Of a DNA stretch of 20,161 nucleotides, positions 99 through 20,015 are shown in pieces. The DNA lies in the IMG/VR virus record IMGVR_UViG_3300019776_000583, positions 1 to 20,161 of that record, one strand, 5' to 3'. Both the position numbers and the translations under genes were made by a program. The notes below the pieces were generated by a model. It ran no database searches and was not told the origin of the DNA. It saw nothing but the letters and a program-made list of their open reading frames with translations. Origin of the DNA: a virus. Each line of letters begins with the position of its first letter. Within the stretch, counting starts at the first letter, position 1.

Positions 99-141
99 CC
101 GCCAGATGAGCTGCGCCGAAGGCGTCAGCTCCATCGAGCAG

Positions 142-172
142 TTGGGCGGCCAACCAGATGTTGTGCTATAAG
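142..172 (+). promoter_or_regulatory. Possible promoter for the HU-like gene
   Basis: An extended -10 like element, TG-C-TATAAG (164-172), lies about 30 bp before the GTG start at 201. A weak -35 candidate, TTGGGC (142-147), sits 19 bp upstream of the -10, longer than the usual 17. This is the most AT-rich part of a GC-rich region. An imperfect dyad, CAAC-N6-GTTG (182-195), lies between the -10 and the start codon and could be an operator. All of this is inferred from motif shape. Confidence 0.35.
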
Positions 173-2900: not shown

Positions 2901-3202
2901 AGCTTGGCTCCCAGTGCCTTCGCGTAGGTCTCGACGCAGTCGAGGACCTCGCGGCCGTCGGTGCAGAAGCTGGCGCCGTCGCAGGGGTCCTTGGGGCCCT
3001 GCAGCTTCGTGCACGTCACCCAGTAGGCGCTCACACCCTCGCGGTCGATGACGATGCTTGGGTGCGCGGCGGCCAGTTTCTTGGCCTTGGCGAGAGCGGC
3101 GGTGGACTTGCCGCGCTCGGACTGCAGGGTCTTGCGCAGCGCGCCGTCGTTGGCGCGCACAGGCACGCCGAAGTACTTGCCGAGGATGTTCCAGTCTGCC
3201 AT
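2897..3202 (-). CDS. Small Cys-containing phage protein
   Basis: This 101-residue protein starts MADWNILGKYFGVPV at ATG 3202, with AAGGAG in good position. It is basic in the middle (KAKKLAAAH) and carries four cysteines in the C-terminal third: WVTC, KDPC, SFC and LDC, around a DPCDGASFCTDGREVLDC block. The spacing could bind metal. Similar short DPC...C..EVL.. proteins occur in phages of high-GC proteobacteria, from memory, with no known function. It overlaps the next gene by GTGA and follows the zinc-ribbon gene by 16 bp. Confidence 0.72.
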   Translation of the reverse strand: MADWNILGKYFGVPVRANDGALRKTLQSERGKSTAALAKAKKLAAAHPSIVIDREGVSAYWVTCTKLQGPKDPCDGASFCTDGREVLDCVETYAKALGAKL

Positions 3203-3218
3203 GTGATCTCCTTGGTGG

Positions 3219-3704
3219 TTAGGCCGAGGCCTTGAGTTTGGTCTTCGCCGGCTTGCCGGCCTTGGTGAGGGTGGCCTGGTAGGCCAAGGCCTTCGCCCTG
3301 GCGGCCTCGAGCGCGTCGTTGTCGCGCACCGACTCCAGGACCGTGTCGGCCGTGTACCCGCCGATCGAGCTCGTGACACCGTTGCGCTTGTAGGTGATCT
3401 CGAGCCGGTCGGCGACGCCGTTGAAGACGGTCTTGCTCGGCTTGATCGAGACGACGTAGTGCCAGCGGTCGGGGCCCAGGCCCATGCTGCCGGTGGACAT
3501 GATGATGTTGTCGCCGGGCCTGATCTCTGAGATGGGCTTTTGGAGCAGCGAGCTCAAGAAGGCCTTGGCCGCCTTGCCGCGCTTCGTGAGCCTCAGGCCG
3601 GTGCCGCCGCAGCCGAAGCAGCGGGTGCCGTTCATGGGGTTGTAGCTGTAGTGGCCACCACCGCCGCAGCGGCCGCAGGTTTCGGTCTCGAAGATGGTGG
3701 CCAC
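3219..3704 (-). CDS. Protein with DnaJ-like CxxCxGxG zinc ribbon
   Basis: This is a 161-residue protein. Residues 10-36 hold two CxxCxGxG motifs (CGRCGGGG at 10-17 and CFGCGGTG at 29-36) separated by YSYNPMNG, a single DnaJ-type zinc-binding unit with no J domain. The remainder has a GDNIIMSTGS strand region, a WHYVVSIKPSKTVF strand, and an Ala/Lys-rich C-terminal helix. The GTG at 3704 is chosen because AGGAG lies 5 nt upstream within the repeated leader, as in the other three leader-first genes. It is the first gene of its unit, so it should be the most strongly expressed. The zinc ribbon may bind protein or nucleic acid; the target is unknown. Confidence 0.78.
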   Translation of the reverse strand: MATIFETETCGRCGGGGHYSYNPMNGTRCFGCGGTGLRLTKRGKAAKAFLSSLLQKPISEIRPGDNIIMSTGSMGLGPDRWHYVVSIKPSKTVFNGVADRLEITYKRNGVTSSIGGYTADTVLESVRDNDALEAARAKALAYQATLTKAGKPAKTKLKASA

Positions 3705-3710
3705 GTAATC

Positions 3711-3780
3711 TCCTGTTTGCGTTGACGACAGAACAAATTGTGGCACAGCCAACAGAAAGTTGTATAGGTAGTTACCCTAG
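3711..3780 (-). promoter_or_regulatory. Repeated leader copy A: dyad operator/promoter and RBS
   Basis: Read on the minus strand, this spacer holds TAGGGTAA at its 5' edge (3779 to 3772), then CAAC-TTTCT-GTTG (3762 to 3750), 7 nt, CACAAT (3742 to 3737), CTGTCGTCAACGC, and AACAGGAG just before the GTG at 3704. The same order and spacing recur at 6062-6141, 7334-7405 and 8582-8661. CACAAT preceded by TGC resembles an extended -10. No TTGACA-like -35 is present, and the dyad occupies that region, which suggests an activator- or repressor-controlled promoter. The TAG of the preceding unit (3777-3779) lies inside the element. Confidence 0.75.
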
Positions 3781-3977
3781 AACACAAGCAGGAGCAGCGC
3801 GGCGCCGCAGACTGTGATCGTCAGGCCAAGGCGGTAGGCGATCGTCAGTAGCCTGTTGGCTTTGGTGAGGTTTTTGCGTGGCCACAGCAGTGGCGCCAGG
3901 AGGCCGAGCGTCACGGACAGGCCGGAGTACAGTAGGCCCGCCACGACGACGAACAGGGCGTTGGTGTCAGCACTCAT
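3777..3977 (-). CDS. Small two-helix membrane protein
   Basis: This 66-residue protein has two clear hydrophobic segments, about 8-30 (LFVVVAGLLYSGLSVTLGLLAPLL is the core region, shown here only as a landmark by its ends LFVV and APLL) and about 47-65 (GLTITVCGAALLLLVF), joined by a basic loop, WPRKNLTKANR. That is a hairpin inner-membrane protein with the positive loop probably cytoplasmic. It could be a holin-like, exclusion or membrane-stress protein, but no family is recognised. ATG at 3977 overlaps the upstream stop by ATGA. Its TAG stop lies within the repeated leader of the next unit. Confidence 0.72.
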   Translation of the reverse strand: MSADTNALFVVVAGLLYSGLSVTLGLLAPLLWPRKNLTKANRLLTIAYRLGLTITVCGAALLLLVF

Positions 3978-4195
3978 CGTCCGCACTCCCTCAAGAACTC
4001 GCGCGCCGCGGTGTCGGCGCCCTGCTGGTCGTGCGCGCTTCGGCAGCCGTTGAGCACGCGGTCCAGGTGATCCAGGGCCTGGCGCAGCTGGCGCTCGGTG
4101 TGCGTCTCGGGGCAGCCGTGTGGCCACGCCGAGCAGGCGCGCCGGTGGCGCTCGAGGATGGCGTCGTTGCTCTGGGGGTCGATGCCAGCACTCAT
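3974..4195 (-). CDS. Small Cys/His-containing helical protein
   Basis: This 73-residue protein has cysteines at about positions 21, 28, 51 and 71 and several His residues (ERHRRACSAWPHGCPETH). The centre is a Leu-heptad-like helix, RQLRQALDHLDRVLNG. A small metal-stabilised or disulfide-free helical protein is plausible; no family is recognised. It is coupled at both ends by ATGA overlaps. Its first codons, ATGAGTGCTG, are identical to those of the next gene at 3977. Confidence 0.66.
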   Translation of the reverse strand: MSAGIDPQSNDAILERHRRACSAWPHGCPETHTERQLRQALDHLDRVLNGCRSAHDQQGADTAAREFLRECGR

Positions 4196-4419
4196 CGTGT
4201 CACCGCCTCAGCGGCGGTCTCGACCCACACTTTGGCGCCGCAGCTCAGCGGCTTGTCGGGCGAGTAGACGACCCTGCTCGGCCCGAGGATCTCGACCTCA
4301 TGGGCGTAGGTGTTGGTGCGCCCGCGCTTGACCGTGATGACGGGGTCGCGCGCTCCGGTCTTGAGGTTGGCCCTGATGATTGCCTGGTTGACGTGGACCC
4401 GGGTGATAGCTGCGCTCAT
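4192..4419 (-). CDS. Small beta-rich hypothetical protein
   Basis: This 75-residue protein alternates hydrophobic and polar residues: TRVHVNQAIIRANLKTG, PVITVKRG, HEVEILGPSRVVYS, then AKVWVETAAEAV. That fits a small beta-barrel or SH3-like fold. GGGGAG lies 6 nt before the ATG at 4419, so the start is firm. It touches the upstream stop (TGATG-type overlap) and overlaps the next gene by ATGA. No function can be assigned. Confidence 0.7.
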   Translation of the reverse strand: MSAAITRVHVNQAIIRANLKTGARDPVITVKRGRTNTYAHEVEILGPSRVVYSPDKPLSCGAKVWVETAAEAVTR

Positions 4420-4763
4420 CAGTAGCTCCCCCGCGCCAGGCGCGTCTTCACCACCGTGCGGAAGTGGCCCATGGCCAGCGGCTGCAGGCTTTCCTGCTCG
4501 ATGGTCAGCACGACACCGGAGTGTGCCGCGCGCTTCGCCAGGGCGCCCGCCTCGAGGCGCACGCGGTCGACCTCGTTGGAGGCCAGCTTGCGCTGCTGGT
4601 CGTGCAGCTCGGTCTTGAGCCGCCGGAAGCTGGCCAGGGCGCGATCAGCCTGGCCCAGGGCCTCGTGACGGGCGCCGTCGAAGCGCGCAAGCTCGCGCTG
4701 GAGGTTCTCGAGCTCGTCGAGTAGAAGGTTGCGCTCTGCGCGCAGGCGTTCAGCGTCGGTCAT
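4419..4763 (-). CDS. Coiled-coil hypothetical protein
   Basis: This is a 114-residue protein. Residues 3-85 are almost entirely a charged amphipathic helix with Leu/Ala heptads (AERLRAERNLLLDELENL; then RLKTELHDQQRKLASN), so an extended coiled coil is likely. The C-terminal 30 residues change character (GVVLTIEQESLQPLAMGH; VVKTRLARG). There is no signal peptide or membrane segment, so it is probably cytoplasmic and oligomeric. ATG at 4763 has AGGAG 4 nt upstream. It follows a 62-residue gene after a 7-bp gap. Confidence 0.72.
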   Translation of the reverse strand: MTDAERLRAERNLLLDELENLQRELARFDGARHEALGQADRALASFRRLKTELHDQQRKLASNEVDRVRLEAGALAKRAAHSGVVLTIEQESLQPLAMGHFRTVVKTRLARGSY

Positions 4764-4770
4764 GGATCTC

Positions 4771-4959
4771 CTACAGAGTGGTGGGAAGCGTCTGCTCGAC
4801 GCGGATCTCGTAGCCCAGCCGCTTGATCAGCTCGAGCGTGGGCTTGGTGAGGGTCTTGGTGCCTGCGATCTGGGCGAAGAGCTCGCCGGTGCGGCATGCG
4901 GGCTGCACGACCTTCTGGCCGTACTGCTGCTCGAGGCGGACGGTGATGTGGGTTGTCAT
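4771..4959 (-). CDS. Small hypothetical protein, 62 aa
   Basis: This 62-residue protein starts at ATG 4959, with AGGAG 5 nt upstream. Longer versions in this frame run across the preceding gene and were rejected. It contains an N-terminal strand (HITVRLEQQYG), a middle with CRTGELFAQIAG, and a compact C-terminal helix-strand unit, TLELIKRLGYEIRVEQ. The start overlaps the upstream TAA as TAATG, so expression is coupled. No family is recognised. Confidence 0.66.
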   Translation of the reverse strand: MTTHITVRLEQQYGQKVVQPACRTGELFAQIAGTKTLTKPTLELIKRLGYEIRVEQTLPTTL

Positions 4960-5456
4960 TAGAACTCCTGGTTGTAGCGATCGACGACACCCTTGACGAG
5001 GCCCCACGTGCCACCGGCCTGGGTCCAGCCGGAGGACAGCTTGTTGCGGTAGAACCGCAGCTTGCCGCGGGGCCCGTCGACGGTGATGACGCGGCGCGTC
5101 GGGGCGGCGCTGATCGAGATGATCTTGCCGATCGGGAAGTAGTCGCCGTTGAACCCTTTGCTCACCTCGTCGCCGACCTGCGGGCAGGCCATCACGTCGA
5201 AGCGCGGGCTCACGCTCGGGCCATTGTCGACGGGTATCCAGTCCTCGCCGGTGAGCGCGGTGGCGCTGGCCGCGAGGCGGGTCACGAACTCGAGGGACGG
5301 GAAGTCCCAGCGCTCGATCCATCCGGCGCCCAGCGGCTTGCCGGGCTGGCGGGCCCAGATGCTGGGGTCGCGGCCGGCGCCATCGATGTTCGTGCGGCCG
5401 TCGACGATCTCGACGACGTTGAGCTGGTTGTCCAGGCGGAAGTGGTTGACGGACAT
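4959..5456 (-). CDS. Hypothetical phage protein with beta-rich C-terminal domain
   Basis: This is a 165-residue protein. The first 80 residues contain IVDGRTNIDGAGRDPS and a Trp-rich patch (IWARQ; ERWDF). From about residue 95 it reads GDEVSKGFNGDYFPIGKI, RRVITVDGPRGKLRFYR, then GGTWGLVKGVVDRYNQEF. This resembles a recurring small phage domain ending R.Y..EF, of unknown role. AGGAG is 6 nt before ATG 5456. It begins 10 bp after the preceding stop within the 6061-to-3777 unit. Confidence 0.72.
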   Translation of the reverse strand: MSVNHFRLDNQLNVVEIVDGRTNIDGAGRDPSIWARQPGKPLGAGWIERWDFPSLEFVTRLAASATALTGEDWIPVDNGPSVSPRFDVMACPQVGDEVSKGFNGDYFPIGKIISISAAPTRRVITVDGPRGKLRFYRNKLSSGWTQAGGTWGLVKGVVDRYNQEF

Positions 5457-5466
5457 GGCGGTCTCC

Positions 5467-5754
5467 TCAGAAGGGTGCGGGGTCGGCCAGATCGCGGCCG
5501 GTGGGCGGCGCGCTGGCGGAGGCGCGCGGGAAGGGCCAGTTGAGGGCGGGCTGCTCGCGCGGCACGATCACGCCGTGCTGCTGCGACAGGTGCGGCCACA
5601 GGCCGTGCTGCTCGATCAGGTTCTCGAGCTCATCCTTCGTGCGGCGGGCGAGCGTCGAGCGGTGCAGGGTGGCCAGCGTCGCAGCCACGGCCGCCGGGTG
5701 AGTGGCAACCAGGGGCAGCGCTCGGTCGACGGCCTTCTGTTCGGACTTGTTCAT
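5467..5754 (-). CDS. Small helical hypothetical protein
   Basis: This is a 95-residue protein. Residues 1-60 are predicted helical (EQKAVDRALPLVATHP, then RRTKDELENLIEQHGLW), and the C-terminal 30 residues are Pro/Ala-rich and probably disordered (PFPRASASAPPTGRD). ATG 5754 lies 4 bp after the upstream stop and lacks a strong ribosome site, so reinitiation from the previous gene is likely. The frame continues upstream to 6000, but that part overlaps the preceding gene and is not used. Confidence 0.64.
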   Translation of the reverse strand: MNKSEQKAVDRALPLVATHPAAVAATLATLHRSTLARRTKDELENLIEQHGLWPHLSQQHGVIVPREQPALNWPFPRASASAPPTGRDLADPAPF

Positions 5755-5758
5755 GGCG

Positions 5759-6061
5759 TCAGGCCGAGAAGTCGCCGGCCTGGGTGCGGTCGTGACGGCT
5801 GAGCAGGACGGACGCATTGACGGCAGGGATCTCGTGGCGGCGCCCGGTGGCGCTGTAGCGGTCGTAGCAGACCGATAGGCGACGAAGCGCTTCCAGCAGC
5901 TCGGTGTACGTCGGCAGCACGGCGTTGTTGAGGCAGCTGTCGGCAGTGGCGATGGCCTCTTGGGCGACGGTGGGCTTGCCGGCGTCGACATCGGCCTCAT
6001 GCGCGGTTTTGGCGATGCAGGCGGCGAGGAGGGTGTTGCGGGGAATCAAGGTGCCGGACAT
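5759..6061 (-). CDS. First gene of the 6061-3777 unit, hypothetical
   Basis: This 100-residue protein starts at ATG 6061, with AGGAG 6 nt upstream inside repeated leader copy B. Sequence features are a short hydrophobic N-terminal stretch (NTLLAACIAKTA), an Ala-rich helix (TVAQEAIATADSC), and a longer helix, YTELLEALRRLSVCYDRY. There are three cysteines. There is no clear signal peptide and no recognised family. The position directly after the leader suggests it is the most highly translated product of this unit. Confidence 0.7.
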   Translation of the reverse strand: MSGTLIPRNTLLAACIAKTAHEADVDAGKPTVAQEAIATADSCLNNAVLPTYTELLEALRRLSVCYDRYSATGRRHEIPAVNASVLLSRHDRTQAGDFSA

Positions 6062-6141
6062 GTAAAACTCCTGGTTGGTTTGCTTGACAGGCGAACGAAT
6101 AGTATCAAAGCCAACAGAAAGTTGTATTGGGACAAACCCTA
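6062..6141 (-). promoter_or_regulatory. Repeated leader copy B: dyad operator/promoter and RBS
   Basis: This is the most divergent copy. On the minus strand it has TAGGG at the 5' edge (6141 to 6137), CAAC-TTTCT-GTTG (6124 to 6112, identical to copy A), 7 nt, TACTAT (6104 to 6099) in place of CACAAT, then CTGTCAAGC and CCAGGAG before ATG 6061. TACTAT is closer to a sigma-70 -10, so this copy may be the strongest or least dependent on a regulator. The TAG of the upstream gene (6139-6141) lies in the element. Confidence 0.73.
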
Positions 6142-6321
6142 TGCCGACCGAACCAGGACAACCCGCCCCGTCGAGCGATCGCGCTGGATGATGTCGCCTG
6201 GCTTGATCGGCGCGCCCGTGTCTGCGCAGCGGCCGACGAATCGGGCCGTCTCGTCGCGCGGGCCGCGGGGCTCGCCCAGCTCGCGGCGGAAGTGCCCGCC
6301 CGTGCCTCGGTAGCCGGTCAT
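6139..6321 (-). CDS. Small basic hypothetical protein, 60 aa
   Basis: This 60-residue protein has an Arg/Gly-rich N-terminal half and a C-terminal motif, RFVGRCADTGAPIKPGDIIQRDRSTGRVVLV (described by its ends RFVGRC and RVVLV). It resembles the C..(S/T)G..I..GD.I...... motif of small phage proteins that fold as a mini beta-barrel. ATG 6321 overlaps the upstream stop as ATGA. Its stop lies within repeated leader copy B. Confidence 0.64.
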   Translation of the reverse strand: MTGYRGTGGHFRRELGEPRGPRDETARFVGRCADTGAPIKPGDIIQRDRSTGRVVLVRSA

Positions 6322-6677
6322 CGGTGCACCCCGCCGGCGCGGCGATTGTTCTGCGGCGTTGCCAGGTCCCAGACGGACGCCACGCGCACGCGGCGCAATG
6401 CGCGGTAGCGCTCGCCGTAAGCAGCCTCACCCAGCGGCTTGGGCTTCGCGGGCCTGGCGCGCGGGCCCGGGCCGGCAGACCAGAGCGCGCGCGGGTACAG
6501 GCGGCCGCCATCGTCGTCTCGGCGCCAGCCGGAGATGTGGACCAGGCTCGATGTCCCCATGGTGCTGAGCTTTGCTCGGACACTGGCGACCGGGGACCCG
6601 ACCTCGGCGGCCAGCTCGCGGGCGGTCATCGGGATGCCGAGCGCGAGGGCTGCGGCGATGCGTTGGGATAGGGTCAC
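6318..6677 (-). CDS. Helix-turn-helix protein
   Basis: This is a 119-residue protein. Residues 2-45 form a typical winged-helix or HTH start: LSQRIAAALALG, then MTARELAAEVGS, PVASVRAKLSTMG. A wing-like segment follows (SLVHISGWRRDDDGGRLYP). The C-terminal half is Pro/Arg-rich with a final basic helix (YGERYRALRRVRV). It is a DNA-binding candidate regulator; similar proteins occur in phages, usually uncharacterised. GTG 6677 overlaps the upstream TGA as GTGA. Being the only clear HTH in its unit, it is a candidate to act on the repeated dyads, but that is speculation. Confidence 0.76.
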   Translation of the reverse strand: MTLSQRIAAALALGIPMTARELAAEVGSPVASVRAKLSTMGTSSLVHISGWRRDDDGGRLYPRALWSAGPGPRARPAKPKPLGEAAYGERYRALRRVRVASVWDLATPQNNRRAGGVHR

Positions 6678-7051
6678 GCCGCCGCCTTCTGGGCCAGCTC
6701 GAGGCGCGAGCCGTCGGGCGTGATGAAGCGCCCGGGGTCGAAGTCGCCCCAGGCGGCGGCGCGGGGGCCGATCAGGCGGCCTTCCTTGCGCGCGGGCAGC
6801 CAGACAGCGATGGCGTCCTGGCCGGTCAGTTCGGCGACCTTGTGGACCGCGTCGGCTAGGCTGACGTCGACCTTGCAGTAGGTGGCCAGGCCCCACTCGG
6901 CGGCGACGACCAGGGTCGGCTCGGTGTCCGAATCGATCGTCTCGCTGGTGCGGACGAAGAAGCCGTGGGTGGACAGGACCTGCAGCACGCTGTTGGCTGC
7001 GACGATGCCGAAGGCCTCAGAGGCCAGGCCGATGTTGAGGTGAACGAGCAC
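6674..7051 (-). CDS. Hypothetical phage protein, 125 aa
   Basis: This 125-residue protein begins with strand-helix VHLNIGLASEAFGIV. It continues with DTEPTLVVAAEWGLA and a helix followed by TGQDAIAVWLPARKEGRLIG. The TEPTLVV and TGQD(A/C)IAV blocks recall a small phage family of unknown function. Start: GTG 7051, because an in-frame TGA lies immediately upstream and no later start keeps the first strand. The ribosome site is poor. An ATG in another frame (7055, ATGAGTGCT) sits just before it and may matter for translation. Confidence 0.7.
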   Translation of the reverse strand: MLVHLNIGLASEAFGIVAANSVLQVLSTHGFFVRTSETIDSDTEPTLVVAAEWGLATYCKVDVSLADAVHKVAELTGQDAIAVWLPARKEGRLIGPRAAAWGDFDPGRFITPDGSRLELAQKAAA

Positions 7052-7117
7052 TCATTGCTTTCTGCTGCAGTGGGAGACTCCACTCGCCTGGGCTGGCTGC
7101 CCAAGCGGCTGGGGTCG

Positions 7118-7333
7118 TCAGCCGACGATGGTGAATCGGTGCCCTCGGCGGATGACGCAAGAGCCCGCATCCGCCTTGAACTCGACGCAGTCGACCGAGT
7201 CCGGCCAGCGCCGCGCCTCGACCTCGGGCGCGCCGAGGATGGCGCGTTCGCGCTGCCCGACAACGTCGGCCATCCGGCGCAGCAGGGAAAGACCGAAGCC
7301 GCGAGCTGGGGCGAAGGTGTGGCGGAAGTACAT
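7118..7333 (-). CDS. First gene of the 7333-6139 unit, hypothetical
   Basis: This 71-residue protein starts at ATG 7333, with AGGAG 5 nt upstream in repeated leader copy C. It contains YFRHTFAPARGFGLSLL, a basic helix (RRMADVVGQRERAI), and a C-terminal beta region (CVEFKADAGSCVIRRGHRFTIV) with two cysteines. No family is recognised. A 66-bp gap without an ORF separates it from the next gene. Confidence 0.68.
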   Translation of the reverse strand: MYFRHTFAPARGFGLSLLRRMADVVGQRERAILGAPEVEARRWPDSVDCVEFKADAGSCVIRRGHRFTIVG

Positions 7334-7405
7334 TTCATCTCCTGTAAGCGTTGACGACAGAGCCTATTGTGCACACCACAACAGCGTGTTGCGTAGGTGT
7401 TTACC
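7334..7405 (-). promoter_or_regulatory. Repeated leader copy C: dyad operator/promoter and RBS
   Basis: Minus strand: GGGTAAACACC (7405 to 7395), CAAC-ACGCT-GTTG (7391 to 7379), 7 nt, CACAAT (7371 to 7366), CTGTCGTCAACGC, and ACAGGAG before ATG 7333. The N5 loop differs from copies A and B, but the dyad arms and the 7-nt spacing are unchanged, which points to selection on arms and spacing. The TAA of the upstream gene (7401-7403) is part of the element. Confidence 0.74.
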
Positions 7406-7619
7406 CGCGACTCTTGAGGAAGTTCACGTAGTGGTCCCAGTTCGCGCTGGTCAGGAACCAGAGCGTCTTGTCGATGCCGGGCCCGATCAGGCCCCAATCG
7501 AACTTCGCTCCGGGCCGCTGCGAGTCGCGCAGCACCAGCACGTAGGGGTACGCGCCGCCGGCGCTGTGCTTCTGGACGGACGAACCGTCGGGGAGGTGGC
7601 CTTGGTAGGTGGTGGTCAT
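7401..7619 (-). CDS. Small hypothetical protein, 72 aa
   Basis: This 72-residue protein is mostly beta in character at the N-terminus (TTTYQGHLPDG; YPYVLVLRDSQ). It then has a Trp-rich C-terminal half (FDWGLIGPG, LWFLTSANWDHYVNFLK). No family is recognised. ATG 7619 follows the previous stop by 9 bp and has only a weak ribosome site, so coupling is likely. It is the last gene of the 8581-to-7401 unit. Confidence 0.65.
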   Translation of the reverse strand: MTTTYQGHLPDGSSVQKHSAGGAYPYVLVLRDSQRPGAKFDWGLIGPGIDKTLWFLTSANWDHYVNFLKSRG

Positions 7620-7628
7620 GGGTGACTT

Positions 7629-7808
7629 TCAGCTTTGGGTCGGGGGCAGCGGGATGTCGCCGGTCTTCTTGCAGTACGCCATGCAAGCCTCTTCGGACTC
7701 GTGACGCATGACGGACAAGTGCCCGGTCGGGTTGTAGCTGGACCACTTGGTGGGGTGGTGCAGTGCGGGGAGGGTCTTGCCCTCTCGCTCTTGGTGCCAG
7801 GTAGGCAT
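7629..7808 (-). CDS. Small hypothetical protein, 59 aa
   Basis: This short frame encodes 59 residues, from MPTWHQEREG to PLPPTQS. AGGAG lies 6 nt before ATG 7808, and the gene fills the space between its neighbours (10-bp and 9-bp gaps), both good support. It is rich in Pro, Thr, His and Glu. Its C-terminal third has two cysteines (EACMAYCKKTG). No family is recognised. Confidence 0.68.
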   Translation of the reverse strand: MPTWHQEREGKTLPALHHPTKWSSYNPTGHLSVMRHESEEACMAYCKKTGDIPLPPTQS

Positions 7809-7818
7809 ATCGGTCTCC

Positions 7819-8151
7819 TCAGTGTTTGATGCGGATGTAGGTCGGGCCGTCGCGCTCGCCGCCGCTCCAGCTCGGGCGCGTCATGGCGCGCACCCAGGCC
7901 TCGTGCTCGGCGATCGTCGGCTCTTCGTGACGCTCCTGGCCCGTCGAGATCCGGCCGACTGGGCCGCGGCGCACCGCCTCGTCGGAGAGCAGGTAGGTTT
8001 CGCCCGGGCCGACGAGGTACTGCTCCTCGCGGAGGTACTGGGCTGCCAGGTCGAAGCTGGTCGCTGCGACGTAGATGGCGATGTAGGGGCGGCGGCCCTC
8101 AGGCGTGGCGGGGGCGAACTGCAGGGCGCAGTAGATGCGGGGCTGGGTCAT
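7819..8151 (-). CDS. Small hypothetical protein, 110 aa
   Basis: This is a 110-residue protein. The N-terminal half forms beta strands (RIYCALQFAPA; YIAIYVAATSF) followed by a helix, DLAAQYLREEQ. The C-terminal half is charged with Trp (EAWVRAMTRPSW) and ends in TYIRIKH. AGGAG lies 6 nt before ATG 8151. No signal peptide is present. It lies after a 70-bp spacer with two hairpins. Confidence 0.7.
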   Translation of the reverse strand: MTQPRIYCALQFAPATPEGRRPYIAIYVAATSFDLAAQYLREEQYLVGPGETYLLSDEAVRRGPVGRISTGQERHEEPTIAEHEAWVRAMTRPSWSGGERDGPTYIRIKH

Positions 8152-8178
8152 CGTGGTCTCCTGGTTGACGGTCACAAG

Positions 8179-8214
8179 GGTCAGCCTCGGGGCTGACCGC
8201 TGCGACCTGCAGCG
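8179..8214 (-). other. Tandem hairpins between two leftward genes
   Basis: Two adjacent inverted repeats sit in a 70-bp spacer: an 8-bp perfect stem GGTCAGCC/GGCTGACC (8179-8186 and 8191-8198) with a 4-nt loop, and a 6-bp stem CGCTGC/GCAGCG (8198-8203 and 8209-8214) with a 5-nt loop. On the leftward transcript neither is followed by a U-run, so a classic terminator is unlikely. An mRNA processing or stability element, a protein site, or partial attenuation is possible. The stems share base 8198, so only one full stem may form at a time. Confidence 0.5.
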
Positions 8215-8221
8215 GGGGTGG

Positions 8222-8581
8222 TTAGGCGAAGGCCTCTTCTTCCGCCTCGCGGCGCTCGAGGGCGATCTCATCCTCAGGGTCGTAGGCGTCGCTGCCGTAG
8301 GCCGGCCGACCCTCTTGCCAGCGACCGAAAGCCACCGGCAGCTTGCCCAGGGCCAGGCGCGCGTTCAGTGCCGCGGCGACCGCCTCGGCGCCGGCCAGGC
8401 ACTCGCGCTCGTCTCGGCTGGTGGTGATGTAAAGCTCACGACGGTCACCGCTCTCGCTGTCGGCGACGACGTAGGCGGAGAAGCCGTACAGGTGACCGCG
8501 TGGGTTGCTGAAGTCGGCCATCTCGGGGTGACTGCCCACGACGACGATGTCGGTGCGGGCGAAAAATTGGGTGACTCGCAT
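8222..8581 (-). CDS. First gene of the leftward cluster, hypothetical
   Basis: This 119-residue protein starts at ATG 8581, with AGGAG 7 nt upstream in leader copy D. The start is beta-rich (RVTQFFARTDIVVVGSH). The middle contains GHLYGFSAYVVADSESGDRRELYITTS, given here only as the interval about residues 29-55, and a helix of Ala/Leu (AEAVAAALNARLALG). The C-terminus is strongly acidic and helical (DPEDEIALERREAEEEAFA). An acidic small early protein could be a DNA mimic or inhibitor, but that is speculative. No family is recognised. Confidence 0.72.
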   Translation of the reverse strand: MRVTQFFARTDIVVVGSHPEMADFSNPRGHLYGFSAYVVADSESGDRRELYITTSRDERECLAGAEAVAAALNARLALGKLPVAFGRWQEGRPAYGSDAYDPEDEIALERREAEEEAFA

Positions 8582-8661
8582 CTTTCTGCTCCTGTTTGTG
8601 TTGACCACAGAACAGATTGTGCCACAGCCAACAGACGGTTGTGCGTAGGTGCTTACCCTAT
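8582..8661 (-). promoter_or_regulatory. Repeated leader copy D: dyad operator/promoter and RBS
   Basis: Minus strand: TAGGGTAAGCACC (8660 to 8648), CAAC-CGTCT-GTTG (8641 to 8629), 7 nt, CACAAT (8621 to 8616), CTGTGGTCAACAC, and AACAGGAG before ATG 8581. This is the first copy, at the divergent boundary, and it still carries the TAG and TAA triplets at its 5' edge although no leftward gene precedes it. That shows the triplets belong to the repeat rather than to any one upstream gene. Confidence 0.75.
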
Positions 8662-8787
8662 GCCCCTGCATGCTGGGCCCGAGATCGTGGAGTAGGGGCA
8701 CAAGGGCCGGTCGGCGACCCTAGAATCGCGCGCATCCGGTTGCGCGCTGTTGCTACCCTGTTGCCCACGAAAGGAACCCCCCCCACA
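8662..8787 (+). promoter_or_regulatory. Divergent spacer with possible rightward promoter
   Basis: This spacer separates the leftward cluster from the rightward lysis/packaging block. TAGAAT (8721-8726) is the best -10 candidate. The hexamer 17 bp upstream is GCACAA (8698-8703), not a sigma-70 -35, although the same hexamer occurs in the -35 position of leader copy D. TGCCCCT (8661-8667) and AGGGGCA (8694-8700) can pair across a 26-nt loop. AAGGA (8771-8775) is the only ribosome-site candidate for the next gene and is set back by a run of eight C. No ORF in it is convincing. Confidence 0.4.
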
Positions 8788-9039
8788 ATGACCCCGAAAT
8801 TCTTGCCGCGTCGGCAGCTCCTGAAGCTGTGGAGCGTGCGCATCCAGGGCCTGTGGGCTGCCGCGTGCGGGGCGTACGTCGCACTGCCCGCGGAGCAGCA
8901 GGCCGCCCTGGCCGCGCTTGTCGGACTCGGCGGCGACGGCGGGGTTGCGGCACTCAGTCTCTTCGCCCAGGCCTCGATCGCGATCAGCGCCGCGACGATC
9001 GCAGCGCGCGCGACCCGCCAGCCGGGGCTCGACGCATGA
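8788..9039 (+). CDS. Putative holin-like small membrane protein
   Basis: This 83-residue protein has a basic N-terminus (MTPKFLPRRQLLKLWS), a first hydrophobic region (about 17-32, GLWAAACGAYVALP), an Ala-rich amphipathic or second hydrophobic segment (36-47), and a third, VAALSLFAQASIAISAATIAARA, at about 53-75 (positions given instead of the full string). It ends RQPGLDA. This matches small phage holin-like proteins of the pattern ..LQ..G...GAW..LP...Q... and R..KQP. It lies first in the block that contains the endolysin, which supports a holin role: timed permeabilisation of the inner membrane. The ribosome site is unusually distant, which may lower expression. Confidence 0.68.
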   Translation: MTPKFLPRRQLLKLWSVRIQGLWAAACGAYVALPAEQQAALAALVGLGGDGGVAALSLFAQASIAISAATIAARATRQPGLDA

Positions 9040-10822: not shown

Positions 10823-11080
10823 ATGCTGGAGATTTTGATGTGGGCCGCGGTGGTGATGTCGGCTGTCGCGCTGGGGTTGGCGTGGTGGATCTCGCGAGAG
10901 TCCGCCGAAGCCATCCGCCGCCTCGAGGACGCCCTGCGCGGCGACCGAGAGGGGTGGTGGTCGCTGACAAGCAGGCTGGCCGAAGTCTCGGTCGACATGA
11001 CTGACCTGGCCTCGACCGTCGGCCTGCGCCGGGCCAAGCCCCGGGAGCGCCAGAATGCGTGGGAGCACAAGCTGCAATGA
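10823..11080 (+). CDS. Small membrane-anchored helical protein, possible spanin-like
   Basis: This 85-residue protein has one N-terminal membrane segment (about 3-23: ILMWAAVVMSAVALGLAWWI is the core) followed by a charged helix (SRESAEAIRRLEDALRGD) and a polar C-terminus. The N-in, periplasmic-helix topology and its place right after the endolysin fit a short i-spanin or a lysis accessory. It is shorter than typical Rz, and no nested outer-membrane lipoprotein partner was found. AGGAG is 6 nt before ATG 10823. Confidence 0.62.
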   Translation: MLEILMWAAVVMSAVALGLAWWISRESAEAIRRLEDALRGDREGWWSLTSRLAEVSVDMTDLASTVGLRRAKPRERQNAWEHKLQ

Positions 11081-11337
11081 GGCCGTCCGAGATGAAGGTC
11101 CTCGAGTTGCTGCGCATCCACCAGCCAATCGCGAGGCGGGAGCTGGCAGCGTTGCTGAAGATCGCACCCGCCACGGCGTCGGTGCATCTGCAGTCGCTCA
11201 AGCGGCAGGGCCTGGCCACAGGCTCGGGCCACGGCTGCGGCTCTGTCTGGAGGCTCTGCACGGGTCGCAGGGCGGGAGCCGCCGGCGCTAGCGGGCCGAT
11301 GGTCAACGACGTCTTCAGCTTCGCGGCGAGCCTATGA
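11077..11337 (+). CDS. Winged-helix DNA-binding protein
   Basis: This is an 86-residue protein. Residues 1-60 match a MarR/ArsR-style winged helix: PSEMKVLELLRIHQPI, ARRELAALLKIAPATASVHLQSLKRQG (helix-turn-helix, 19-45), then a wing ending CGSVWRLC. The remaining 25 residues are flexible. It probably binds DNA as a dimer and could regulate the late block. ATG overlaps the previous stop by ATGA. Confidence 0.8.
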   Translation: MRPSEMKVLELLRIHQPIARRELAALLKIAPATASVHLQSLKRQGLATGSGHGCGSVWRLCTGRRAGAAGASGPMVNDVFSFAASL

Positions 11338-15794: not shown

Positions 15795-16048
15795 GGCGCA
15801 GTCCCGCCACCTCCACCCTGCTGGGTGCGCTCTGGCGATGCGTCGCCATGACGGCCATCATCGCGGTGCTGATCCCTCTCGTCTGGATCGGCATCTCGAT
15901 GCGCCTCGTGATCAACTCCCCGAAGATCGCCTGGCACGCCATCGATGACTGGCGCTTTCACCAACGCCGACACCCCGGGTGCGACTACAGGCTGAGCCAG
16001 TCCATCCGGCTGCACTGGCGCATCTGGCTGCGATCGGAGGGTCTCTGA
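15788..16048 (+). CDS. Small single-pass membrane protein
   Basis: This 86-residue protein has a hydrophobic helix (about 18-40, VAMTAIIAVLIPLVWIGISM) after a basic N-terminus, then a hydrophilic C-terminus rich in Arg, His and Trp (HAIDDWRFHQRRHPGCDY; LHWRIWLRSEG). By the positive-inside rule the topology is ambiguous. It starts at ATG 15788, 7 bp inside the previous gene. No family is recognised. A lysis or packaging accessory role is possible by position only. Confidence 0.62.
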   Translation: MLRRSPATSTLLGALWRCVAMTAIIAVLIPLVWIGISMRLVINSPKIAWHAIDDWRFHQRRHPGCDYRLSQSIRLHWRIWLRSEGL

Positions 16049-16329
16049 TGATCCGCAACGCAGTGCTGCGCGCGCGGCATGAGGCCAGCCTCGGCATCAC
16101 GAGGGATCACATCGATTCGGGGATCGCTGCGATGCTGCTCGAGGAGAAGAGCAACAAGCAGATGGTGGCCGCCACCGGGGTGCCGAACACCACGATCAAC
16201 CACCGGCTGCTGGCGATGTCCAGGCGGGCCGGGGCGAGGACGCGCGTGGGCCTGGCTCTGGCGCTGCAACGACAGCTGTGGTCGGAAGGCGCTGCCGATG
16301 GCCGCCAGGTGGCCGCGGTAGCCCGATGA
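16048..16329 (+). CDS. LuxR-like HTH protein upstream of TerL
   Basis: This is a 93-residue protein. Residues 27-70 resemble a GerE/LuxR-type helix-turn-helix: AAMLLEEKSNKQMVAATGVP, then NTTINHRLLAMSRRAGARTR. The KSNK.(I/M)...(G)...(T)(I/V)..(H/N)...(M) arrangement is clear. No sensor domain is present. GGAGG lies upstream of ATG 16048, which overlaps the previous stop as TGATG. It could regulate the late operon or be part of a split packaging recognition module. Terminase linkage is by position only. Confidence 0.76.
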   Translation: MIRNAVLRARHEASLGITRDHIDSGIAAMLLEEKSNKQMVAATGVPNTTINHRLLAMSRRAGARTRVGLALALQRQLWSEGAADGRQVAAVAR

Positions 16330-19300
16330 CTGAAGACGATCCCAAGCTCGCCGGCCTGAAGCTCCTCAGGGACAACCTGGAGGTCTACAGCGCCCACTGC
16401 CTGAAGGTGAAGACCAAGGACGGCCGCATCGTTCCGTTCATATGGAACCGCGCCCAGCGCTTCGTGCACGCCCAGCTCGAGGAGCAGCGCAAGCGGCTCG
16501 GCTTCGTGCGGGCCTTGATCTTGAAGGGCCGTCAACAGGGCATCAGCACCCTGGTTGGGGCCCGCTTCTACCATCGCACAACGATGAACCTCGGCCAGCA
16601 GGCCTTCATCGTGACGCACGAGCAGAAGGCGACCGACAACCTCTACCAGATGGTGAGGCGCTACCACGACCACAACCTGATCCCGATCAGCACCGGCGCG
16701 ACCAACGCGAAAGAGTTGATCTTCGACCTGCTGGATGGAGGCTACAAGCTGGCCACCGCGGGCACCAAGGACGTCGGACGATCGAACACTGCGCAGCTTC
16801 TGCACGGCTGCTTGGGGGCGGGCGCCCTGGTAATGATGGCGGATGGATCGCTGCGCGCGATCGAGACCTTGGAGCCTGGCGACGTGGTCCGAACGCGCCG
16901 CGGCTTCGAGGCGCCGGTCAAGGGGATCAGCTGGCACTCGGGCTCGACCCGTGAGCTGCGCATTGCGATGAACGGGCTGCGCCTGCGCGCCACCGACAGC
17001 CACAAATTCTGGACTCGCCGTGGGATGGTCGCTCTGGCTGACCTGCGCGTCGGCGACGAGCTCGGCTTCCCGGTGCGCGAGATCACCGAGGAGATCTTGA
17101 CGACCCGATTCGCCTGCGATCCGACAGTGCGCGCCCACGGCGGCGGGAGGTCCGAGGCGCCTGGCCCAGAGTCCATGCCATTGACATTCGAGCTCGGCCG
17201 CATGTTGGGCCTGTACCTGGCAGAAGGGCACGTTGACCTGCAAACCAAGGCGCCCCATGCGCCGGCGGCCGTGATCTTCGCCTGCCACGAGCGCGAGCTC
17301 GAGCGCAACACCGCTTGGGTGCGCGAGGTTGGCGGCTTCTCGTCGCTGTCCGAGCGCTCGAACAAGGGCAGCAAGACGCGAATGACGAACGCCTATGGCC
17401 GGCAGTTCGCGAGCTTCGTGCTGCGCATGTGCGGCCGCAACGGCGGCAAGCACTTGCCCCACGAATGGTGGCGGATGCCGCGCGAGTTCGTTCGCGGCCT
17501 GCTGGTCGGCTACCTGGCTGGCGATGGGCACTGCTCGCCGGAGCGTGATCGACGCATCCAGGCGCCGTCTATCGTGCCGGCCATCGCCTACGGCATGCGC
17601 GACGTCGTGGCTGCACTCGGCTACGGGTTCCCGTCGGTCAGTTTCCGCGACGCCAGGCAGAGAGGAGGCCGCAACGAGAAGGCCCAGTACACGCTGCGCA
17701 TCACGGGCTCTGCGGTCGACGCGATCGCGCCGATGCTTGGCTGGGAGATGCCTCCACGCAGCAGGGCCGTACACGACACCCGGATTCAGGGTGGCTACGC
17801 CTGGCTCGCCATCGACTCGATCGGCGATCCGGCAGATGAAATGGTCTGGGACATCGAGGTCGACCACCCTGACCACGACTACTGCCTGACACAGTGCGCC
17901 ACCAGCAACAGCGAATTCGGCTTCTGGGCCAACGCTCAGAGCCACCTGGCCGGCATCGGCAACACCATCGTCGACGCCGCCCCGACGGAGATCATCCTCG
18001 AGTCCACCGGCAACGGCCTGGGCAATGCGTTCCACCTGATGTGGCAGGACGCGGAGGAGGGCAAGGGTCTCTACATCCCGATCTTCGTGCCATGGTTCTG
18101 GCAAGAGGAGTACCGCGCCCCAGTTCGAGCCGACCTTGAACTTTCCGATGCCGACATCGCATACCGCGACTGCCACGGCCTCGACATGGAGCAGATGCAG
18201 TGGCGGGCCAACAAGATCACCAGCTACGGCGACGGGTTCGCGTGGCTCTTCGATCAGGAGTACCCGGCGTGTGTGGTGGCGGGAACGCGCGTTGGCACGA
18301 GCGCGGGGCTGATCAAGATCGAAGACGTGGCCTCCGGTATGGCGGCGACAATGGGCGCGATCGAAGCCAGCAACAAGCAGCCGCCGTCTCAGATCTTCAA
18401 GCTCACCACCTCGCTGGGGTATGAGTTCAGGGGAACCTGGGATCACCCGGTCTTCACGGCGGGCGGGGTCCTGCTGCCGATGATGTCTTGCAAAGGGGTC
18501 GACATCAGGCTGCAGCCGCCGATGCTTGCCGAGGCGCAGCACGTCGAGCGCTGGCGCGAGTTCGGGGTCGACAGCTCGATCCGCGTCGAAGAAGACTTCG
18601 GCCTGCTGCTGGGCCTCTTTATGGGTGATGGGTCGCTGTACGACGGCTGCGTCAGCTTCTGCTGCGACGCCAGGGACGGTGATGTGGTCGCCGAGTGCCA
18701 GCGTCTTCTGCAGGATGTGCTGGGCATATCTTCTGCGACGCGACAGGTCGGCAGCAAGGGCGGCGGCGTCGAGGTCAGGGCGCAGCGCAAGGAGCTCACG
18801 GCCGTCTTTGACAGGCTTGGCCTGCTGCGTGACGGGGCTGGCAACTCAGGCCGCAAGCGCATGGTCTGCGTCCCGGAATGCATCTGGCGCTCTCCGCGGC
18901 CCGTGGTGATCCAGTTCCTTCGGGGCCTCTTCGAGTCTGACGGGTTCAATGGCTACGGGCATCCGCGCGTCACTCTGTTCAGCAAGCACAAGGACTTCCT
19001 CGGCGGCACACAGCTGCTGCTGCTTGCGCTCGGCATCACGTCGAGGCTGGGTCTCGAGACAAGCAGGAAGGGCGACAAGACTCACGTCGGCTACAGCCTG
19101 ACGATGCGCCGCAATGAGTCGATCAAGTTCAACGAGGTGGTCGGCTTCATCTCGAAGCGCAAGTCCGACAAGGCTGCCTCGTGGCGTGCGGTTGGCAAGA
19201 CCGGAGCTCGGCGCCTCGAGATCGAGATGGTCGATCGCGTCGCGTCGGTGGTCGAGGACGGCTTCGAGGCAACCTACGACATGACGGTCCGCGGAGGCGA

Positions 19301-20015
19301 GGCCTTCGATGCGAACGGCATCCTGACGCACAACACCGCAGCTCTCGCATTCCAGACCGGCACGATGAACCCGCTGTGCTCGCCGCACTTCGTGAGCTCG
19401 GCAGCCAACGGCGACTTCTACGACGAGGCCGGCGCCCTGATCATCGGCTGCGACCCGGCGAGCGACGGCGCCAGCACCAAGGACCGGACCTGCATCGTCT
19501 TCCGCCGCGGCCGCGTGGTGTTTCGTGTGGAGTACCACGACAAGCTCAGCTCGATGCAGGTCGCCGGCAAGCTGGCCAACTACTACGCAGAGTTCGATCC
19601 TGACGCGATCTTCGTGGACAAGGGCGGCATCGGCACTGGCATCGTGGATCGCTTGCAAGAGCTGCAGATTCCTGTGATCGGAGTGATGTTCGGGGAGGCC
19701 GCAAGCGAGCCCGACATCTACGCCAACAAGAAGGCCGAGATGTGGTGGCGAATGAAGGATTGGTTCGAGGAGAAGCCGAACCGCATCGTCAACAACCCCG
19801 CGTTCATCAGCGACATCTGCGCGCCGCAGCCCGACGTCTCGAGCAACGGGCGCAAGCTCCTCGAGTCGAAGGAGAAGCTCGAGAAGCGCCAGATCAGAAG
19901 CCCTGACGGCGGCGACGCGCTGGCCCTGACGTTCGCCGAGAAGGTCATGTCCAAGGCAGCTATGGCGGGCAGCACCAAGACGTCGCACGAGACGGCATCC
20001 AAGGCCGGCTACTGA
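16326..20015 (+). CDS. terL: Terminase large subunit (TerL) carrying two inteins
   Basis: One uninterrupted frame of 1229 residues encodes a phage large terminase, the ATP-driven packaging motor and nuclease. Extein 1 (1-161) has the deviant Walker A ILKGRQQGIST (65-75). Intein 1 is C162-N528. Extein 2 (529-648) has Walker B EIILESTGNG (catalytic Glu559) and the coupling and linker region, ending FDQEYPA. Intein 2 is C649-N1003. Extein 3 (1004-1229) is the RNase H-like nuclease with acidic residues Asp1043 (GCDPA), Asp1098 (FVDKGG) and Asp1197 (GGDAL). The exteins total 507 residues, normal for TerL, so splicing of both inteins is needed for a functional protein. ATG 16326 overlaps the HTH gene stop by ATGA. 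Confidence 0.95.
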   Translation: MTEDDPKLAGLKLLRDNLEVYSAHCLKVKTKDGRIVPFIWNRAQRFVHAQLEEQRKRLGFVRALILKGRQQGISTLVGARFYHRTTMNLGQQAFIVTHEQKATDNLYQMVRRYHDHNLIPISTGATNAKELIFDLLDGGYKLATAGTKDVGRSNTAQLLHGCLGAGALVMMADGSLRAIETLEPGDVVRTRRGFEAPVKGISWHSGSTRELRIAMNGLRLRATDSHKFWTRRGMVALADLRVGDELGFPVREITEEILTTRFACDPTVRAHGGGRSEAPGPESMPLTFELGRMLGLYLAEGHVDLQTKAPHAPAAVIFACHERELERNTAWVREVGGFSSLSERSNKGSKTRMTNAYGRQFASFVLRMCGRNGGKHLPHEWWRMPREFVRGLLVGYLAGDGHCSPERDRRIQAPSIVPAIAYGMRDVVAALGYGFPSVSFRDARQRGGRNEKAQYTLRITGSAVDAIAPMLGWEMPPRSRAVHDTRIQGGYAWLAIDSIGDPADEMVWDIEVDHPDHDYCLTQCATSNSEFGFWANAQSHLAGIGNTIVDAAPTEIILESTGNGLGNAFHLMWQDAEEGKGLYIPIFVPWFWQEEYRAPVRADLELSDADIAYRDCHGLDMEQMQWRANKITSYGDGFAWLFDQEYPACVVAGTRVGTSAGLIKIEDVASGMAATMGAIEASNKQPPSQIFKLTTSLGYEFRGTWDHPVFTAGGVLLPMMSCKGVDIRLQPPMLAEAQHVERWREFGVDSSIRVEEDFGLLLGLFMGDGSLYDGCVSFCCDARDGDVVAECQRLLQDVLGISSATRQVGSKGGGVEVRAQRKELTAVFDRLGLLRDGAGNSGRKRMVCVPECIWRSPRPVVIQFLRGLFESDGFNGYGHPRVTLFSKHKDFLGGTQLLLLALGITSRLGLETSRKGDKTHVGYSLTMRRNESIKFNEVVGFISKRKSDKAASWRAVGKTGARRLEIEMVDRVASVVEDGFEATYDMTVRGGEAFDANGILTHNTAALAFQTGTMNPLCSPHFVSSAANGDFYDEAGALIIGCDPASDGASTKDRTCIVFRRGRVVFRVEYHDKLSSMQVAGKLANYYAEFDPDAIFVDKGGIGTGIVDRLQELQIPVIGVMFGEAASEPDIYANKKAEMWWRMKDWFEEKPNRIVNNPAFISDICAPQPDVSSNGRKLLESKEKLEKRQIRSPDGGDALALTFAEKVMSKAAMAGSTKTSHETASKAGY
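16809..17909 (+). mobile_element. Intein 1 in TerL with LAGLIDADG endonuclease
   Basis: The intein is 367 residues. It starts at Cys162 of TerL with block A CLGAGALVMMADGSLRAIE and LEPGDVV. Block B is RATDSHKFW (Thr62-x-x-His65 of the intein). Two LAGLIDADG helices follow, LGLYLAEGH (acidic Glu139) and LLVGYLAGDGH (Asp239), so a homing endonuclease is likely. Block F is VWDIEV plus HDYCL. The C-terminus is CATSN, with Ser529 as first downstream extein residue. It sits at HG|SE of the ATPase domain, between Walker A and Walker B. The penultimate residue is Ser, not His, a deviation from the Hint consensus. Boundaries come from motif logic, not experiment. Confidence 0.92.
18270..19334 (+). mobile_element. 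Intein 2 in TerL with LAGLIDADG endonuclease
   Basis: The intein is 355 residues, starting at Cys649 with block A CVVAGTRVGTSAGLIKIED. Block B is GTWDHPVF (Thr56-x-x-His59). LAGLIDADG helices are LLGLFMGDGS (Asp120) and FLRGLFESDGF (Asp224), both acidic residues kept. Block F is YDMTVRGGEAFDANG, and the end is canonical ILTHN followed by Thr1004. It splits QEYPA|TAALAF, where the ATPase half passes into the nuclease half. It shares only the family motifs with intein 1, so the two are independent insertions rather than a tandem copy. Predicted functional splicing: Cys1, TxxH, penultimate His and Asn are all present. Confidence 0.95.

Follow-up and report, generated by a model that had tools for sequence, protein, structure and literature searches.

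The DNA analysed here, hereafter the window, comprises the first 20,161 nucleotides (nt) of an 84,161-base temperate-phage record (IMG/VR record IMGVR_UViG_3300019776_000583). Its minus strand carries four copies of a promoter-like cassette, numbered c1 to c4, each directly upstream of the first gene in a leftward block of small genes. The order of elements is common to all: a GGGT box, the dyad CAAC-N5-GTTG, 7 nt, a CACAAT or TACTAT box, a leader, AGGAG and a start codon. In what follows we consider which protein is likely to act at the dyad, and how widely the dyad is distributed in this phage and its relatives.

Architecture of the four cassettes

A preliminary description of the window had proposed four copies of one leader element on this strand, and exact matches to CAAC-N5-GTTG-N7-YAYWAT are found just where it placed them (3737-3762, 6099-6124, 7366-7391 and 8616-8641). 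Nowhere else in the 84,161-base record does the pattern match exactly, and read in reverse it has no match there. When up to three mismatches are allowed, the window contains 10 matches versus 1.65 in shuffles (shuffle maximum, 6). The four copies also form the top-ranked family in a direct-repeat search, and a profile built from them, as had been suggested, separates the cassettes (scores of 53-70) from the remainder of the record (11.5 or below). An exact scan of IMG/VR with a longer cassette string gave no matches. The positions of the elements, and their conservation as described below, are direct observations.

Much of the proposed architecture is borne out. The gap between dyad and -10 box is 7 nt in all four cassettes, AGGAG and a start codon follow, the dyad is placed at about -32 to -20, and a sigma-70 scan of both strands of 3000-9000 found no -35/-10 pair. 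The -10 box is of the extended type in three of the four, c3 being without TGn. Some details required revision. The dyad arms are constant, as had been claimed, but the loop is not free to vary, its final two letters being CT in every copy. Similarly, the TAGGG(TAA) assigned to all copies holds only as a GGGT element: c3 has CGGGTAA, c2 has TAGGGTTT, and in c4 the box is shifted by 2 additional nt between it and the dyad. The TAG is the stop codon of the upstream gene in c1 and c2, and in c3 the TAA is that stop.

In c1, c2 and c3, as in relatives G001 and G003 and in two promoters of relative G019, the GGGT box (GGGTWWnnnCC) starts exactly 15 nt before the dyad; the distance is 17 nt in c4 and 25 nt, which is 10 base pairs (bp) further, in one promoter of relative G006. 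From the box to the -10 there are 35 nt in c1-c3, in both G019 copies and in two copies of locus L244. Between-phage identities are 65% for the GGGT box, 62% for the dyad and 39% for the leader, whereas leader identity within the phage is 68%. The leader is thus homogenised within the phage, meaning that c1-c4 are not independent copies and that duplication accounts for part of their similarity. We read the likeness of the leaders as reflecting duplication, and the GGGT box and dyad as being under selection.

Table 1. Positions of cassette elements, further predicted operators and the candidate regulator (window numbering unless marked as record)
Feature	Position	Strand	Basis or remark
c1 dyad CAAC-TTTCT-GTTG, predicted operator O1	3750..3762	-	exact match; about -32 to -20; identical 13-mer in G001 and G002
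c1 -10 CACAAT after TGC (extended -10)	3737..3742	-	sequence; no -35 found
c1 GGGT box GGGTAACTACC	3767..3777	-	begins 15 nt upstream of dyad
c1 Shine-Dalgarno AGGAG	3710..3714	-	serves GTG start at 3704
c1 first gene, CxxC-rich protein of 161 amino acids (aa)	3219..3704	-	block 3704 to 1384
c2 dyad CAAC-TTTCT-GTTG	6112..6124	-	exact match
c2 -10 TACTAT after TGA (extended -10)	6099..6104	-	sequence
c2 GGGT box GGGTTTGTCCC	6129..6139	-	15 nt upstream of dyad
c2 Shine-Dalgarno AGGAG	6068..6072	-	serves start at 6061
c2 first gene, 100 aa	5759..6061	-	block 6061 to 3777
c3 dyad CAAC-ACGCT-GTTG	7379..7391	-	exact match
c3 -10 CACAAT after GTG, not TGn	7366..7371	-	sequence
c3 GGGT box GGGTAAACACC	7396..7406	-	15 nt upstream of dyad
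c3 Shine-Dalgarno AGGAG	7339..7343	-	serves start at 7333
c3 first gene, 71 aa	7118..7333	-	block 7333 to 6139
c4 dyad CAAC-CGTCT-GTTG	8629..8641	-	exact match
c4 -10 CACAAT after TGG (extended -10)	8616..8621	-	sequence
c4 GGGT box GGGTAAGCACC	8648..8658	-	17 nt upstream of dyad (2-nt insertion)
c4 Shine-Dalgarno AGGAG	8589..8593	-	serves start at 8581
c4 first gene, 119 aa	8222..8581	-	block 8581 to 7401
Further predicted operator CAAC-CAGAT-GTTG	151..163	+	just upstream of TGCTATAAG, ahead of HU gene (201-500)
Paired predicted operator CATC-GAGCA-GTTG	132..144	+	exactly 19 bp upstream of 151 dyad; 7/8 arm bases
CI-like HTH_3 repressor, 156 aa	record 79607-80077 (outside window)	-	HTH_3 E 3e-14; PHROG repressor matches

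The dyad and the repressor gene

Profile and dyad scans of the phage's own record located about 10 exact dyads and several sites with one mismatch, mostly in promoter-like intergenic DNA and in both orientations. The preliminary description had linked the set to the leftward cluster; the predicted regulon is broader, extending to HU, ERF/YqaJ recombination, replication and the control region of the repressor itself. The additional dyads precede genes that have ERF, YqaJ, SSB, RdgC and replication proteins as neighbours. At record 75937 a dyad lies within the spacer of TTGCGC-16-TATACT and a second lies over the -35, and this arrangement, with a dyad in the spacer of a -35/-10 promoter, recurs in relatives G001, G002 and G011. 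Dyads are present in the intergenic region of the repressor gene in G000, G001 and G002. In the phage's own repressor control region they take the form of CAACACTCCGTTC at 80106 and AAAACTTTTGTTG, both one to two mismatches away from the dyad; this layout is repeated in G001, and G002 has an exact dyad. In the portal relative G006 (L039:10132-10190, 12442, 14944 and 18070), dispersed TGCTACWATTTGTTG promoters stand ahead of homologues of the window's cluster genes, and there a dyad of the form CTAC-N5-GTTG overlaps the -10 itself.

The repressor resembles the 434 and P22 C2 repressors (PDB 1per and 3jxb) in sequence and fold. Residues Q30, R33, W35 and E36 of its recognition helix are invariant across seven repressor relatives, and a recognition helix so retained fits with the constancy of the dyad arms. 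A Pfam search detected helix-turn-helix (HTH) families only and no C-terminal LexA-like peptidase domain; induction by RecA cleavage is therefore not expected. The C terminus of the structure model is of low confidence. A divergent neighbouring open reading frame (ORF) begins at 80185, giving the region the appearance of an immunity region. This ORF (record 80185-80541; L008:4185-4541) occupies the Cro position, is 32-44% conserved in three relatives and has no match in Pfam or PHROG. The record also contains a Phage_integrase match (E 3.7e-19), from which we take the phage to be temperate.

Comparison with other genomes associates the dyad with this repressor gene. A first search for repressor relatives yielded two records, each with its own excess of CAAC-N5-GTTG, and the excess is confined to a spacer of 5, no other spacer being enriched. 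The phage's own record has 10 dyads versus 1.25 expected; the figures for repressor-carrying relatives are 6 versus 0.6 (G001), 11 versus 0.8 (G002), 10 versus 3 (G011), 12 versus 2.6 (G017), 11 versus 2.3 (G018) and 6 versus 0.25 (G019). There is no such excess in portal relatives G012-G015, genomes without a repressor match that are prophages of Polaromonas, Janthinobacterium (two) and Hydrogenophaga. As a hold-out, loci were collected from a wider repressor alignment by the protein alone, and all 11 carry excess dyads (2-6 versus 0.1-0.6), although some are near-duplicates and the independent phages are fewer than 11. Portal relatives also occur in bacterial genomes, and one of these, Polynucleobacter UK-Kesae-W10, carries the repressor too. 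It has 39 exact dyads genome-wide, 8 of them in a prophage of ~64 kb, and all 6 copies of CAACAAAATGTTG lie within that prophage. A pattern search of bacterial genome contigs had found no repressor relatives, the Polynucleobacter one surfacing later by profile. Searches against named phages returned no DNA match to the window and no relative of the repressor. The host group is probably Burkholderiales.

Where the dyad is paired, the preferred distance to the second copy is 19 bp. Alignment of exact dyads gave this offset at 12 of 31 sites (z 4.3), with no more than 2 of 31 at the next-ranked among the offsets listed; the peak is also found across all records (19/66 sites, z 4.2) and in the hold-out (15/40, z 4.0). 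In promoters of the early type, the upstream dyad overlaps the -35 and the downstream dyad occupies the spacer. In c1-c4 a degenerate dyad, with 4-6 of 8 arm bases, lies over the -10 at this distance; it is suggestive of a second operator, which we do not claim. Scanned on DNA alone for two dyads spaced at 19 bp, IMG/VR gave 37 loci. Repressor relatives are present in 4 of them, one being a known record and the other three new (E 1e-33 to 1e-48), whereas no strong repressor match was seen among 80 control loci whose dyads are 21 bp apart. Tandem CAAC-N5-GTTG is commoner in IMG/VR at 21 bp (at least 120 loci) than at 19 bp (37 loci). Totals for the virosphere as a whole are consequently no evidence for 19 bp, and the case for that distance comes solely from its association with the repressor gene and from the offset profile within phages. 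Many repressor-less contigs (L071-L073, L075-L077, L079, L083, L086, L088, L094, L095 and L103) share a nearly identical nested palindrome, gtggtcgatcatttgttcttaac...GTTGgttaagaa, that encloses paired dyads.

The dyad excess tracks the repressor gene, itself a direct observation, and the repressor is accordingly preferred here as the candidate dyad-binding protein. Of the three HTH proteins of the window that had been put forward as regulators, those at 11077-11337 and 16048-16329 have no relatives in any dyad-bearing record examined, and that at 6318-6677 has only weak ones (38% over 50 aa), at four loci. The dyad is thus most likely the operator of the phage's own CI-like repressor and of none of these three, the 6318-6677 protein being a possible minor player, for instance at the GGGT box.

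Control of the cassettes and competing explanations

On this basis we assign a probability of roughly 0.78 to the reading that c1-c4 are promoters of four small-gene blocks bearing predicted symmetric operators of the CI-like repressor. Comparison among relatives supports the earlier proposal that the promoters form a dispersed set, apparently under joint control, with the dyad as a protein-binding site. We infer that the repressor binds the dyad, that binding is repressive and that transcription makes use of the -10 boxes. In a lysogen, repressor dimers on CAAC-N5-GTTG over -32 to -20 would exclude RNA polymerase; upon induction or fresh infection, loss of the repressor would open all four blocks, along with the other operator-bearing promoters. 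The preliminary description had envisaged a phage-coded regulator that might be needed for expression. The first part is supported, with the CI-like repressor as candidate; the second is revised, because with such a regulator the dyad is more likely to be an off-switch that silences the promoters in the lysogen than an element required for their expression.

Three points weigh against this reading. At L244:539 and L244:1826 the GGGT box and -10 are retained at 35 nt while the dyads are degenerate (6/8 and 4/8), and the dyad is therefore not essential in every cassette of such shape. The G019 cassettes have no degenerate second dyad at the 19-bp offset. Finally, a Cro-like or other protein with an equal half-site could be the dyad binder instead.

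The best placed of the other explanations extends repression at the dyad rather than replacing it. A phage or host activator would act at GGGTWWnnnCC in the manner of class II activation, and its proposed site, centred near -42 where the -35 is absent, hints that a further factor probably binds there, perhaps an activator taking the place of the -35. The fixed spacing of the box (15 nt to the dyad and 35 nt to the -10, with 17 nt in c4), its between-phage identity, the highest of any segment (65%), and its occurrence ahead of dyads in G001 and G003 all argue for such dual control. The box has no candidate protein, however, the comparison draws on ten copies from about five phages, and the box might instead be the operator of a second repressor or belong to a transcription end point. 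Dual control is thus a serious possibility at somewhat less than even odds. As the TAGGG(TAA) segment is separate and possibly an activator site, the idea of a required phage-coded regulator may still hold for the GGGT box. At the L244 promoters 539 and 1826 the box may outweigh the dyad in importance. A fuller proposal, which we offer tentatively, is that the cassettes are two-input modules (activator box at -42, operator at -26 and extended -10) copied by this phage family before accessory blocks, and that the palindromes paired at 19 bp elsewhere may represent an undescribed immunity system common to a family of Burkholderiales temperate phages.

An activator at the dyad itself, with a phage-coded HTH protein at -32 to -20 turning the promoters on during infection, would account for the missing -35 and for the fixed 7-nt gap to the -10. 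It is nevertheless improbable: the dyad also sits in the spacer or over the -35 of promoters with a good -35 and -10 (TTGCGC-16-TATACT at 75937, and those of G001, G002 and G011), the -32 to -20 region overlaps polymerase, three of the four cassettes have an extended -10, the dyad co-occurs with a CI-like repressor gene, and dyad-bearing relatives lack two of the three HTH proteins that had been put forward.

The remaining explanations are weaker. Plain duplication of a single leader comprising promoter and ribosome-binding site, the dyad then having no regulatory role, fits leader letters that are common within the phage (68%) and not between phages (39%), but is very unlikely given that the GGGT box and dyad are kept between phages differing in leaders and loops, and that the dyad is enriched genome-wide and at unrelated genes in relatives. 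Repeated promoters without a -35 are typical of phage-polymerase and alternative-sigma systems, and no sigma-70 pair was found here; such an origin is scarcely credible all the same, since the boxes fit a sigma-70 -10 (TAnnAT-like with TGn), the symmetric dyad is present in ordinary -35/-10 promoters too, and no RNA polymerase gene was noticed in the part of the record's genes that was searched. Least credible is an RNA leader element (hairpin, attenuator or riboswitch): the inverted repeats could form hairpins and the phage's own copies have a conserved leader, but the likely start is downstream of the dyad, which also occurs in both orientations.

Predicted folding of the leaders also shows no advantage over shuffled sequences (z 0.74, 0.31, 0.74 and -1.14), and an Rfam search of the leader gave no match to a curated family. 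A plus-strand promoter from the conserved leader TTGAC was rejected as well: inspection by eye showed no suitable -10 at a distance of 16-18 nt, and the sigma-70 scan likewise found none.

Relation to known systems and other features of the record

The operators of 434 have arms ACAA...TTGT in a 14-bp ACAA-N6-TTGT, and these resemble the (A)CAAC...GTTG(T) of the present dyad, just as the HTH fold is shared with 434 and P22 C2. Here, however, the form is ACAA-N7-TTGT at best, one base wider, with CAAC enriched at spacer 5 only; the sites are dispersed rather than clustered in OL/OR; and the C-terminal peptidase domain is not detected, which also sets the repressor apart from the SOS-cleavable lambda cI. 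Class II activation by lambda cI at PRM involves a site near -42 and a weak or missing -35. The GGGT box near -42 beside a missing -35 is similar, but has no known protein.

Two dispersed regulons are similar in overall organization. The C1 regulon of P1 comprises 22 dispersed operators, which are asymmetric 17-mers (ATTGCTCTAATAAATTT) (PMC8546580). One lysogeny repressor with many operators dispersed at separate lytic-gene promoters is the shared feature; the asymmetric 17-bp operators of P1 contrast with the symmetric 13-15 bp CAAC/GTTG dyads found here, which frequently come in pairs at 19 bp; the regulator here is a small HTH_3 protein. Mycobacteriophage L5 has more than 20 asymmetric sites, including stoperators; the sites are bound by a monomer, share the direction of transcription and have been proposed to act as blocks to elongation (PMC9283540). 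Many short sites at promoters and in short intergenic gaps of one temperate phage are common to both, whereas the present sites are palindromic and mostly at promoter-like sequences. Working like P1 and L5 but lacking their asymmetry, the present system would be a variant beside them and not a member. Overall, it may be described as a P1/L5-like dispersed operator regulon with a predicted 434-type symmetric operator and composite promoter cassettes.

For a phage family that has no close named member in the phage collection searched, sequence alone has thus allowed prediction of the immunity repressor together with its operator and a large part of the regulon. One member of the family resides in a sequenced Polynucleobacter isolate, and the prediction makes immunity groups and prophage induction testable. 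The composite cassette indicates how, through copies of one small promoter, a temperate phage can add accessory blocks that are subject to lysogenic control.

Other features of the record are of separate interest. The cluster protein encoded at 4959-5456 has no relatives in IMG/VR and distant matches only among named phages. The frame for the terminase large subunit (16326-20015) contains two intein-like insertions, Hint_2 at residues 162-211 and Intein_splicing with LAGLIDADG_3 at ~684-1003. After the structural genes there are two very large frames, of 3109 aa (record 48331-57660; L006) and 2205 aa (58173-64790; L007), which are possibly polyvalent ejected proteins.

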